A DNA stretch of 40,727 nucleotides from Clostridia bacterium (GTDB lineage: Bacteria; Bacillota; Clostridia; UMGS1883), in the NCBI GenBank assembly GCA_021202495.1, contig JAJQCX010000087.1:1-40727 (forward strand), read 5' to 3'. Under the pieces are notes generated by a model. That model was not told the DNA's origin, made no database searches, and saw only the letters and a program-made list of their open reading frames with translations. This document shows, one piece after another, positions 3,445 through 7,883 of this stretch (the first letter of the stretch is position 1; each line of letters opens with the position of its first letter). A program made the position numbers and the translations under genes.

Positions 3445-5021
3445 CAACTCATTTTTACAATAACAACGCCGTTTACAATCTTTGTGCTTCCCTCTGCGGG
3501 GTACGCCGGCATTTCCCGAACCTCTTCCAGCTCCGAAAATTCATCTACAACCTCTGTTCCGTCGCCGTATATCTGATCCTCCCAACCGCAGTAACGCTGC
3601 AAAAACAGGTTATAGCCATAGCTTCTTATAAAATCGCTCATGTTAAAGCTTCCCGTCACGCCCACGTCCTCCAGCTCCGGCGTGCTGTTGTAGTCGGAGA
3701 TTGAATTTCCTATCAAGAGCGTCGTCATTCCCGGCTCATAGCCTTCCGTCTGCTGCACCGCCATGAGTAAGCGGTTTCCGAACGCAACCGACTGCTGCTC
3801 CACAATGTCCGACTTAAAATATGCCTCATTGTCACGCAGCGCGTAATTTGCCGAAAGGATAACCGCGCCCAAGATAACGCACCACACGCAAACTGTCGCC
3901 GCTATCCTGCCCGCCTTTGAGCCTTGTTCCCGCACGCTGTAAGCGTAATCTCCCATCGCCACCGCTGCCACGGGCAGCATACACAAGCCGAAAATCATCA
4001 GCGTGTGTATTTGTTCCGCCGGTATCGCCGCCATAATGAGCGTGAGATTTGCCGCCAAGGGGAAAACAATAACGAGCGCCGCAAGGAGTAAAATTTGCTG
4101 CCAATGAAGCTTGCGGCGGAAAAGAATAAACATCCCTACCCCTACTGCCGCTATGACCATCACACAAAACGCCGCGATTGCGGGAGCGGAATGCAATCCG
4201 AAACTGTCCGATATAAAATATTCCATGTAATATTTGTACGCCGAAACTATCAGCCACGGCAAATCCCCAAAATGAATGCCCATGTCGGCAAGACCCATGT
4301 AATCGACCAATCCGCTCTCCGGAGCCGCAAACTGAGCTGCAATGTAGTACGCCGCAACTCCCACTCCAAGCGCAATGACGTATTTTAACGCGTTTTTCAA
4401 AACATCCGAAAGCTTCTTGTCCCCATCGAGCAAATCAAAAATAAGAGCCCCAACCAGCATTGCGGCTGCAACGCACACATATGCCTGATATATCGACGCC
4501 GAAAGCGCAACGCAAATTCCGCCGACCACGCACCAAATCGGGTTTCTTCTCTTAATTGTCAAATACGCGCCCAAGCACGCCAAAAAGAGGCTAAACATAT
4601 ACGCGTCCGCCGAAAACATGTAAAAATTGTTCGACGCAATGCTCGGGAACGTCACCATCAGCGCCGACGCCGCAATACAGCCTATCGCGCTTCTTATCCG
4701 CATAACTGACACCGCGAGACACGCCGAGACCGAGAGCAGCAGCGCCGAAATCAACCCTATCACCCACGAAACGCTGAAGCTTCCGTCCAGCATCATCACA
4801 AGCGGCAGCAGCCATCTTCCCGACATAGCACCGTAATCCGACCCGAACATCGCCCCCACGTTGTCGTGATTTAAAAGCAGCTTGCAATATGCCTGATGAT
4901 GCACAATAAGGCAAAGCGCAAACGCCGCCGTAAACGTTATCAAAATATGTCTCGGAATTTTCTCAAAAAGCCTCCGCAGCGCTCCCTGCGGCGCGGCAAT
5001 CCCCAACGCGTTATCGTCCAT
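3444..5021 (-). CDS. Polytopic membrane protein resembling the GtrII glucosyltransferase family
   Basis: N-terminal 'HNDNVGAMFGSDYGAMSGRWLLPLVMMLDGSFSVSWVIG' and about 10 hydrophobic segments are typical of GtrII-like proteins. Family assigned by eye. Confidence 0.65.
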   Translation of the reverse strand: MDDNALGIAAPQGALRRLFEKIPRHILITFTAAFALCLIVHHQAYCKLLLNHDNVGAMFGSDYGAMSGRWLLPLVMMLDGSFSVSWVIGLISALLLSVSACLAVSVMRIRSAIGCIAASALMVTFPSIASNNFYMFSADAYMFSLFLACLGAYLTIKRRNPIWCVVGGICVALSASIYQAYVCVAAAMLVGALIFDLLDGDKKLSDVLKNALKYVIALGVGVAAYYIAAQFAAPESGLVDYMGLADMGIHFGDLPWLIVSAYKYYMEYFISDSFGLHSAPAIAAFCVMVIAAVGVGMFILFRRKLHWQQILLLAALVIVFPLAANLTLIMAAIPAEQIHTLMIFGLCMLPVAAVAMGDYAYSVREQGSKAGRIAATVCVWCVILGAVILSANYALRDNEAYFKSDIVEQQSVAFGNRLLMAVQQTEGYEPGMTTLLIGNSISDYNSTPELEDVGVTGSFNMSDFIRSYGYNLFLQRYCGWEDQIYGDGTEVVDEFSELEEVREMPAYPAEGSTKIVNGVVIVKMS

Positions 5022-5143: not shown

Positions 5144-5230
5144 ATTCTAACCTTTTTCTCTTCATCCTCTTGACAAAAAACGAAGAGAGTGGTTAGAATA
5201 TGATTAGAATGGTTAGAATGTGGTTAGAAT
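5144..5230 (+). promoter_or_regulatory. Promoter with iterated GGTTAGAAT operator-like half-sites upstream of the AlbA_2 gene
   Basis: Half-sites tggttagaat 5190-5199, tgattagaat 5201-5210, tggttagaat 5210-5219 and 5221-5230, plus inverted ATTCTAACC 5144-5152. Embedded promoter TTGACA (5170-5175)-N18-TAGAAT (5194-5199). Confidence 0.7.
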
Positions 5231-5249
5231 ATTTACAAGGTGAGATTAT

Positions 5250-6560
5250 ATGATTTTCAAAGAAAGCGAAACCGTAGAATTAAAATCCATCGTAACGGAC
5301 GACATAAAAAAAGAAATTATCGCCTTTGCCAACTGCGAGGGCGGCAGGCTGTATGTCGGCGTTCAAAACGACGGCGGCGTCATCGGAGTTGACAATCCCG
5401 ATAACACGGCTCTTCAAATCAGCAATATGATTCGCGACGCCGTCAAGCCCGATCTTACAATGTTTCTGCATTACGAAACTCTGAATGTCGAGGGCAGGCA
5501 AATTGTCGCCGTCGACGTTCAAAAAGGCTCCGACCGCCCTTATTATATCGCAAAAAAAGGGCTTCGTCCCGAAGGCGTCTATGTTCGTCAGGGATATTTC
5601 TCAGCTCCCGCCACAACCGCCGTCATTCGCCAATTGATCAAGGAAACCGACGGCGACCGCTTTGAAGATATGCGTTCGTTGGAGCAAGATTTGACCTTTG
5701 AATTTGCCGCAAAGGAATTTTCGGCAAGAAACATTCCCTTTGCCCAAGCTCAAATGAAAACCTTGGGACTTATGAGCCGCGACGGTGTTTACACCAATCT
5801 CGCACTTCTTCTCTCCGACCAATGCTCTCACACCATCAAAGCAGCCGTTTTTGAAGGCTGCGACCAAAACGAATTTAAAGACCGCCGTGAATTTTCCGGC
5901 TCGCTCTTCAAGCAAATGCATGATGTCTATGATTACATTGATTTTCGCAACCAAACCCATTCCTCGTTTGACAAGCTGCTGAGAATTGACAATCGCGACT
6001 ATCCCGAAGTCGCGCTGCGTGAAGCATTGTTCAACCTTCTTGTACACCGCGAATATTCGTTCAGCGCAAGCAGCTTTATCCGCATTTTTCAAGACAGAAT
6101 TGAATTTACATCAATCGGCGGACTTGTCGGCGGTGTAACCCTGAACGACATTTCAATGGGCATTTCCGTCTGCCGCAACGTCAAGCTCGCAAATGTCTTC
6201 TATCGCCTTGAACTTATCGAAGCCTATGGCACCGGCATTTCCAAAATCATAAAAGCGTATTCCGCATACGGCAAAGCGCCGAAAATAGAAACCTCCGACA
6301 ACGCTTTTAAAATCACTCTTCCCAATTTGAATTATCAATCCCGCGAAACTCAAAAAGCGCCCTCATATCAAAGCGCCCCCGAAGAAAAGGTAATCGCTCT
6401 CGCCGAGAGCAAAGGCATTGTAACGAGAAAAGATGTTGAGACGCTTCTCGGCACAAAACAGTCCTCCGCGGGACGCATCCTCAAAAACCTCGTTCAATCA
6501 GGACAACTCATCCGCGAAGGCGGCGGCAAAAGCACCCGCTACCGCCCGGAAAAAACCTGA
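5250..6560 (+). CDS. AlbA_2 (Schlafen)-type putative DNA-binding / ATP-binding transcriptional regulator with C-terminal winged HTH
   Basis: 'ESETVELKSIVTDDIKKEIIAFANCEGGRLYVGVQNDGGVIGVD' is the AlbA_2 signature; central 'ALREALFNLLVHREYS...IRIFQDRIEFTSIGGLVGG' resembles HATPase_c_4; the C-terminus looks like wHTH. SD aaggtgag before ATG 5250. Confidence 0.88.
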   Translation: MIFKESETVELKSIVTDDIKKEIIAFANCEGGRLYVGVQNDGGVIGVDNPDNTALQISNMIRDAVKPDLTMFLHYETLNVEGRQIVAVDVQKGSDRPYYIAKKGLRPEGVYVRQGYFSAPATTAVIRQLIKETDGDRFEDMRSLEQDLTFEFAAKEFSARNIPFAQAQMKTLGLMSRDGVYTNLALLLSDQCSHTIKAAVFEGCDQNEFKDRREFSGSLFKQMHDVYDYIDFRNQTHSSFDKLLRIDNRDYPEVALREALFNLLVHREYSFSASSFIRIFQDRIEFTSIGGLVGGVTLNDISMGISVCRNVKLANVFYRLELIEAYGTGISKIIKAYSAYGKAPKIETSDNAFKITLPNLNYQSRETQKAPSYQSAPEEKVIALAESKGIVTRKDVETLLGTKQSSAGRILKNLVQSGQLIREGGGKSTRYRPEKT

Positions 6561-6587: not shown

Positions 6588-6649
6588 TTGACATCCCTCC
6601 GTTTTTACGATAAAATAAATTGTAATTTACTTTATCGTAAAAACGGAGG
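6588..6649 (+). promoter_or_regulatory. Promoter/RBS region with perfect 19-bp-arm palindrome
   Basis: TTGACA (6588-6593)-N17-TAAAAT (6611-6616). Arms CCTCCGTTTTTACGATAAA (6596-6614) and TTTATCGTAAAAACGGAGG (6631-6649) are perfect reverse complements; GGAGG is the SD for ATG 6657. Confidence 0.75.
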
Positions 6650-6656
6650 CTTCCAT

Positions 6657-7883
6657 ATGCAATATATTCATCGTACACCGGAGCGCAAATTTCTCAGAAT
6701 GAGCTCTTTTTTCAAAGCCGTCCTTGTGACGGGCGCAAGGCAGGTCGGCAAAACAACAATGCTTAAGCATCTTGCGAAGGACACCGAGCGCACCTATGTT
6801 TCCATGGATAATATTATGGTGCGCACGCTCGCCAAATCCGATCCCGTCCTTTTTTTCCAAACCTACAAGCCGCCCATCATTATCGATGAAATTCAAAAGG
6901 CGCCCGAGCTTTTTGAGCAAATCAAAATCATCTGTGACGAAAGCGAGGAAACGGGGCTTTTTTGGCTCACGGGCTCTCAGCAATATAATATGATGAAAAA
7001 CGTCCGCGAAACGCTTGCCGGCAGGGTCGGCATTTTAGAGCTGTACAGCCTTACCGCAAACGAAATCGAAGGGCGCGCGTTTCAAAACGAGCTTGATTTT
7101 TCCTTTCAATGCCTTAGAGAGAGAATGCCCTTCGCCCCAAAAAACAATATCCTCGATGTCTTTGAGCATATATGGTGCGGCGGTATGCCTGCCGCCCTCA
7201 CTGCTGACGGCGAGCTGCACCGGGAATATTTCAATTCATACATCGAAACATATCTCATGCGCGACGTTTCAGAGGACGGCGGCGTCACCGACACTGTCAA
7301 ATTCAGCAGGTTTCTCATCGCCTGCGCCGCGCTTTGCGCCGAGCAGGTCAATTACAAAACATTAGCCGATGCCGCCGATATTTCACAGCCGCTCGCCAAG
7401 GATTGGCTTCGTCTTTTGCAAAGCTTGGGCATCATTTATCTTTTGCAGCCCTTTGCGAACAACGCTCTCAAGCGCCTTGTGAAAACTCCCAAGCTTTATT
7501 TTTGCGACACCGCTTTAGCCGCCCATCTCTCCGGCTGGCTCACACGGGACACGCTGATGAACGGCGCGGCAAGCGGGCACTATTTTGAAAATCATGTCGT
7601 CATCGAGCTCGTGAAAAACTTTGCCTATTCTCCCTCAAAAGTTAATTTAAGCTATTACCGCGACTCCAATGCTAAAGAAATAGACCTGTTTATCGAAGAA
7701 AACGGGCTAATTCACCCTTTGGAAATAAAGAAATCCGCCAATCCCGACCGCCGGGAGGTCAAAAAATACGAAATTCTTGACAAAACCAACCTCTCACGCG
7801 GCAGCGGCGGCATAATATGTATGTGTGAGGAGCCCATCCCCATCGACGACAAAAACTCATTTATCCCCTGCAATTTAATCTAA
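6657..7883 (+). CDS. ATP-binding protein, AAA_14 + DUF4143 type
   Basis: 'VLVTGARQVGKTTMLKHL' (Walker A), 'PPIIIDEIQKAPELFEQIK' (Walker B), 'FWLTGSQQYNMMKNVRETLAGRVGILELYSLT', C-terminal 'FENHVVIELVKNF...YYRDSNAKEIDLFIEENGLIHPLEIKKS'. Start moved from the track's 6588 to ATG 6657. Confidence 0.9.
   Translation: MQYIHRTPERKFLRMSSFFKAVLVTGARQVGKTTMLKHLAKDTERTYVSMDNIMVRTLAKSDPVLFFQTYKPPIIIDEIQKAPELFEQIKIICDESEETGLFWLTGSQQYNMMKNVRETLAGRVGILELYSLTANEIEGRAFQNELDFSFQCLRERMPFAPKNNILDVFEHIWCGGMPAALTADGELHREYFNSYIETYLMRDVSEDGGVTDTVKFSRFLIACAALCAEQVNYKTLADAADISQPLAKDWLRLLQSLGIIYLLQPFANNALKRLVKTPKLYFCDTALAAHLSGWLTRDTLMNGAASGHYFENHVVIELVKNFAYSPSKVNLSYYRDSNAKEIDLFIEENGLIHPLEIKKSANPDRREVKKYEILDKTNLSRGSGGIICMCEEPIPIDDKNSFIPCNLI

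Follow-up and report, generated by a model that had tools for sequence, protein, structure and literature searches.

An iterated array of asymmetric sites, probably an autoregulatory operator, at the promoter of a solitary Schlafen-type gene of a Clostridia bacterium

Introduction

Plasmid iterons are sites iterated on one strand at intervals of about a helical turn, and they can also autoregulate a promoter. The winged-helix protein BldC of Streptomyces binds asymmetric direct repeats of about 9 bp, head-to-tail, in variable number and cooperatively (PMC5859096), and RptR represses a defence-island promoter via three direct repeats (PMC12255303). Proteins that join Schlafen, histidine kinase (HK) and winged helix–turn–helix (wHTH) domains have been reported as BREX-linked RNase effectors; the sections of that report dealing with them describe the architecture as widespread, with close linkage to core loci in 1017 taxa or more, and cite a preprint of 2025 on the part of bacterial Schlafens in phage defence (PMC12839542). 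The usual annotation of the architecture is 'RecG-like helicase' or 'ATP-binding protein', and we found no published DNA target for it in the open-access PMC literature. Here we describe a stretch of 40,727 bp (the window; contig JAJQCX010000087.1 of assembly GCA_021202495.1, Clostridia bacterium) in which an array of short direct repeats overlaps the promoter of a gene of this architecture (5250–6560, plus strand; 436 aa), whose product is the proposed binder of the array. Comparison of related loci makes it probable that the array is the autoregulatory operator of this gene, bound by the wHTH domain of a self-limited, one-gene effector that represses its own promoter cooperatively.

The array and promoter in the window

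Four direct copies of TGRTTAGAAT start at 5190, 5201, 5210 and 5221 on the plus strand, and the steps of 11, 9 and 11 bp place every array site on roughly one face of the DNA. Copy 1 (TGGTTAGAAT, 5190–5199) holds the −10 hexamer TAGAAT (5194–5199); copy 2 (TGATTAGAAT, 5201–5210) overlaps copy 3 (TGGTTAGAAT, 5210–5219) by one T, and copy 4 (TGGTTAGAAT) occupies 5221–5230. Measured from the ATG, copies 2, 3 and 4 have offsets of −49, −40 and −29, which are also those of the orthologues described below. The sites are asymmetric, about 9–10 bp long, head-to-tail and variable in number. Hexamer scoring places the −35 hexamer TTGACA, which is kept in orthologues, at 5170–5175 (plus strand), and the resulting promoter TTGACA-N18-TAGAAT scores 11/12. 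A probable ribosome-binding site, AAGGTGAG (5237–5244, plus strand), aligns with the AGGAGG of the orthologues, and an inverted site, ATTCTAACC (GGTTAGAAT on the minus strand), lies upstream at 5144–5152, recognized from the sequence and by orthologue comparison. A sequence-only reading of this stretch had pointed out the four copies with their spacing, the inverted copy and the promoter, all of which lie exactly where it put them, and Tandem Repeats Finder agrees with its 20 bp repeat unit (2.2 copies, 88 %).

The whole 2.42 Mb genome contains eight exact copies of GGTTAGAAT, four of them within the 87 bp at 5144–5230; the reversed control word occurs 11 times. Chained TTAGAA pairs number three at the array and two elsewhere in the genome, the latter with unrelated flanks. 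Five copies of a 9-mer (at most one mismatch) are present in the 120 bp upstream of the gene, as against a maximum of three in 20 dinucleotide shuffles. A chance origin of the array was rejected on these genome word counts and shuffles, together with the control upstream regions and the chain test given below.

Upstream regions of orthologues

A scan of the GTDB representative genomes gave 80 relatives of 51–79 % identity, from Lachnospiraceae, Sporomusaceae, Oscillospiraceae, Veillonella, Spirochaetota, Synergistota and Chloroflexota. Their upstream regions had been chosen beforehand as the place where the idea of an operator could fail; the position of the array proves to be conserved, and its word co-varies with the recognition helix of the protein. 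Orthologues of about 70 % identity share one arrangement: inverted sites precede the −35, another site covers it, and direct sites follow at −49, −40 and −29. There are typically two inverted sites, which gives a layout of inverted arm, −35 and direct arm, and the −35 overlaps a degenerate operator site, TTGACAAGAAT. The inverted site at 5144–5152 is the counterpart of these two, and the distance from inverted site to −35 is kept to about 1 bp among the orthologues. The upstream consensus of the close clade is TTcTaacca.tTTtCtAaccA.T..TTGACAAGAATGGTTAGAATGGTTAGAATaTGG.TAGAAT.TTTT.AGGAGG, and mean information is 1.57–1.69 bits per base over the stretch from the −35 to the second direct site, as against 0.29 bits in the flank. 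Since the inverted upstream arm is typical of this clade and confers an overall dyad, the same-strand, iteron-like picture of the earlier reading is only partly right. The window departs from its orthologues in having one extra perfect site, at −60, and in the position of the −35 and the inverted site, both of which are shifted upstream by about 21 bp; it looks as if a 20 bp unit had been duplicated with the −10 kept inside the array.

Among proteins of 50–65 % identity the layout stays and the word differs (GACCCGATT, GACGAGATT, GATTAGAAT, GTTAGAAA). The words TGACCCGATT or TGACGAGATT accompany 28 proteins and L021, and TGATTAGAAT is found at L023, L043 and L059 and in an Oscillospiraceae group; L067 has GTTAGAAA at exact 10 bp steps, and the Chloroflexota have TGATAAGATA. 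The general form TGRNNNGAWT fits, or nearly fits, every one of these words except that of L067 and its allies. A Fusobacterium homologue (50 % identity) has GTTAGAATATATTAGAATATGTTAAGAA.

At least four copies of a 9-mer within 120 bp are present in 76 % of 78 orthologue promoters but in 3.4 % of 263 controls, which are other upstream regions of the same loci. A separate search of 398 genomes, run after the pattern had been defined, supplied a held-out set of 24 further homologues (43–57 % identity) with their 5′ ends, of which 23 were usable (L152 was left out). Chains of at least three 9-mers at steps of 9–12 bp were found in 12/23 of these, in 54/78 orthologues and in 7/268 controls, the clearest held-out case being L139 with five copies of GTATTAGAA at 10 bp steps. 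The 20 bp unit of the window resembles a recent duplication, as might be expected of a functionless simple tandem repeat produced by replication slippage, but conservation across clades, constant positions and the controls all contradict such an origin, which we regard as scarcely credible.

Members of the HATPase_c_4 family from the phylum at large mostly do not have such arrays, and the array thus belongs to a subfamily. A search of 20 other genomes from the window organism's family gave no strong orthologue (E-value below 1e-20), which suggests that the window gene was acquired horizontally.

Some orthologue loci carry additional sites. In Sporomusaceae a second operator, with one or more inverted sites, a gap and direct sites, lies just past the stop codon (L018, the cultured species Sporomusa ovata, 4342–4397; L014, 4363–4416) and has no evident −35. 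Several Lachnospiraceae (L002, L010, L015, L016, L022 and L070) have a second pair of operator sites about 170–212 bp upstream, an inverted one and then a direct one with about 14 bp between them; the pair is followed by a palindrome of the TGTCACG...CGTGACA type, which is also present at L069 and L011; L070 and L011 have GACCCGATT-type sites beside the palindrome, though their genes are of the GGTTAGAAT type.

Inspected by eye, the distant homologues (about 25–30 % identity) give a mixed picture. Upstream of 365 in L175 (Butyrivibrio plasmid pCY360, 26 % identical) several TTGAAGT direct repeats sit between the promoter region and the start codon, possibly a distant version of the same operator design, and Chlorohelix L181 has three TGGCGGATA-like repeats. 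No arrays were seen, again by eye, at distant homologues that lie in operons or are embedded in BREX loci. L082, a distant homologue from the family of the window organism, shows another style of operator, a palindromic one: AAACGCACGCGTGTGTT occurs twice over its promoter.

The protein and the domain that reads the word

The domain reading proposed from the sequence alone, AlbA_2 followed by an HATPase-like centre and a wHTH, is borne out by Pfam, AlphaFold2 and Foldseek, which give the order Schlafen, minimal kinase-like ATPase, wHTH. The SLFN_AlbA_2 domain spans residues 5–116 (5262–5597; Pfam PF04326, E-value 4e-21) and its fold matches the human Schlafens SLFN14, SLFN11, SLFN12 and SLFN5, and SAMD9, in Foldseek; HATPase_c_4, which is GHKL-like, spans residues 277–357 (6078–6320; PF13749, E-value 2.4e-18), and in Foldseek this central part matches the ATPase domains of GHKL kinases, PDK and VanS among them. 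The wHTH (residues 376–433, 6375–6548) is taken from the secondary structure of the AlphaFold2 model (mean pLDDT 84), with helices at 376–388, 393–400 and 404–416 and strands at 420–423 and 430–433. All three domains are on the plus strand, as is the recognition helix, residues 404–416 (6459–6497), identified from the model and the word comparison, the divergence of which follows the operator word.

Over 59 loci, the distance between operator words correlates with the distance between recognition helices with r=0.72, as against 0.68 for the wHTH, 0.57 for GHKL, 0.52 for the middle and 0.26 for AlbA_2. Column-by-column mutual information is dominated by one clade split, and we therefore preferred a partial Mantel test, in which the recognition helix retains a partial r of 0.62 (permutation p=0.001) when the remainder of the protein is controlled for. 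AlbA_2 is disfavoured as the DNA reader, its low correlation becoming −0.34 once the wHTH is controlled. Q404 is present in 34/35 proteins of the TTAGAA type, which are spread over several separate clades, and in 0/28 of the GACCCGATT type. It is mainly on this co-variation of word and helix that we base the view that the encoded protein itself binds the array. Direct repeats at steps of about 10–11 bp are typical of some response regulators (PMC5859096), and a different protein, such as a response regulator of the OmpR or LytTR type, might bind the array with the Schlafen gene as a mere target; however, the array goes with this gene across several phyla and unrelated neighbourhoods, has no other target in the genome, and has a word that follows the Schlafen-type protein's own recognition helix, so that we consider another regulator quite unlikely. 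The repeats might alternatively work in RNA, as a 5′-leader element to which the Schlafen RNase domain would bind, autoregulating the gene post-transcriptionally. Copies 2–4 of the window follow the −10 and probably form part of the transcript, and Foldseek finds the N-terminal fold RNase-like, but most orthologue sites, including the inverted and −35 ones, are upstream of the start site and the word follows the wHTH, not AlbA_2, which leaves this alternative very improbable.

The RNase triad of rat SLFN13 consists of three carboxylates, E205, E210 and D248 (PMC5862951). The Schlafen catalytic acids E5 and E10 are conserved in 69/70 relatives and the third acid, D40, in 65/70; the window copy has N40, with D41 adjoining. 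GHKL-type residues E258, N262, H266, R267 and G327-T-G are invariant in 70 relatives. We regard the window protein as a probable Schlafen-type RNase effector. Foldseek also matches 2kyy at the N-terminus of the model; PADLOC gave only partial matches for the protein, and comparison with a viral fold library returned nothing informative.

Regulon and neighbouring genes

A scan of the organism's own genome revealed no further word cluster and no second regulated gene, and in 20 genomes with close orthologues word clusters occur beside the orthologue's own gene only, the other hits examined being coding sequence or unrelated promoters. A wider regulon, as implied when the gene was first read as that of a regulator, was rejected on these scans by exact word patterns of partly draft genomes; the 'regulator' is therefore probably an autoregulator, and the protein seems to act chiefly on its own gene. 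In the light of this lack of other target genes, we picture a one-gene, self-limited effector with a private operator.

The neighbours of the gene in the window encode GtrII, AAA_14/DUF4143 and FeoB, and the gene lies neither inside nor beside a BREX locus. Regulation of the neighbours was also considered and rejected: those of the orthologues are unrelated between loci, in varied chromosomal contexts, and the window's divergent GtrII gene is not kept as a partner. The exception among the neighbours is a conserved Sir2-like gene, which lies upstream at many loci in part of the GACCCGATT clade (L028, L030, L036, L037, L048, L074 and others); its product has no Pfam match at 1e-3. The next gene of the window (6657–7880) encodes the AAA_14/DUF4143 ATPase, which matches the PADLOC candidate defence family PDC-S01 (E-value 7e-98). 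In its upstream region (6588–6650) a perfect 19 bp inverted repeat, TTTATCGTAAAAACGGAGG (arms at 6596–6614 and 6631–6649), overlaps the promoter TTGACA-N17-TAAAAT and takes in the ribosome-binding site; the exact TTTATCGTAAAAACGGAGG word has no other occurrence in the genome.

Proposed mechanism

The computation shows an array that is conserved and coupled to the wHTH, and no wider regulon in the scanned genomes; the mechanism that we infer involves binding, cooperativity, repression, an inducer and RNase activity. The C-terminal winged helix would read an asymmetric site of 9–10 bp, of the general form TGRNNNGAWT, which recurs over the −10 at intervals of roughly one helical turn and is complemented by an inverted arm ahead of the −35. 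Binding would be cooperative, with several protomers next to one another across the −35, the −10 and the start site, and the upstream inverted arm may close a loop. In the clades examined the promoter hexamers sit inside the operator; occupancy should therefore block RNA polymerase, and the occupied array would shut the promoter off. Repression might be lifted when the level of the protein drops, or when a nucleotide, stress or phage signal engages the Schlafen/GHKL part. Binding could instead recruit RNA polymerase, making the protein a positive autoregulator with a bistable on-switch, and the inverted arm does lie upstream of the −35, the usual place of an activator; but the direct sites overlap the −10 and the start site, and the −35 as well in orthologues, which is where repressor sites usually lie, and the promoter hexamers are already close to consensus (11/12), so that we think activation unlikely.

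Several points weigh against cooperative autorepression by the encoded protein. The sequence alone is compatible with activation instead of repression. The two word classes split largely on one branch of the tree, and because the large word switch fell on few branches there are few independent co-variation events, while the permutation test removes relatedness only in part. About half of the held-out homologues have no clear chain. The genome scans used exact word patterns on genomes that are partly drafts, and weak extra targets could escape them. Finally, the RNase triad is incomplete in the window copy, and the RNase activity of this copy is uncertain because its third catalytic acid is N40.

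A row of repeats that is kept in relatives and changes with the DNA-reading helix suggests that this gene, a relative of those for antiviral Schlafen proteins, keeps itself off until needed. A private, autorepressed promoter suggests that overproducing the protein carries a cost, as would fit an RNase effector, and it makes the inducing signal searchable by reporter. The array is apparently the first DNA target for an abundant, uncharacterized architecture recently linked to phage defence, and its natural pairs of operator word and recognition helix offer a testable specificity code, permitting specificity-swap tests. More tentatively, and with the odds somewhat against it, solitary Schlafen–GHKL–wHTH genes may be widespread one-gene immune or stress switches, in which wHTH autorepressor, GHKL sensor and Schlafen RNase effector share one polypeptide, lineage-specific words have evolved with the recognition helix, and a signal frees operator and effector together.

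Comparison with known systems

Plasmid iterons differ from this array in their setting, since here there is no Rep protein or origin (Pfam finds no Rep domain in the array-adjacent gene) and the array lies on a Schlafen-type promoter in varied chromosomal contexts. RptR is a small homodimer, each of its repeats has a 6 bp palindrome, TAGCTA, unlike the asymmetric sites of the window, and its targets are restriction–modification operons, not just its own gene. Among solved structures, the nearest to the architecture as a whole is 3lmm (DIP2311 of Corynebacterium diphtheriae; Foldseek E-value 2.6e-23, sequence E-value 4.7e-16), which matches the window model over its length; it is an uncharacterized protein in the PDB, the records of which give no DNA target.

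The BREX-linked effectors, as presented in the relevant sections of PMC12839542, have their domain order and fold classes in common with the window protein, and those sections describe no operator or autoregulation. The window gene differs in being solitary, with its own promoter and array, and its product in having N as the third catalytic acid. An Azotobacter homologue sits between brxC and pglX, where the 11 bp before the gene leave no room for an array. BldC is a 68-residue MerR-like protein with many targets, whereas in the window system the wHTH is joined to Schlafen and GHKL parts, there is an inverted arm and its own promoter would be the only target; Pfam finds no MerR-type domain in the window protein, which is no homologue of BldC. 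The likeness is therefore one of mode of action, by inference, and not of family membership, and by this analogy side-by-side cooperative binding as in BldC is the most likely way in which the array would be occupied.
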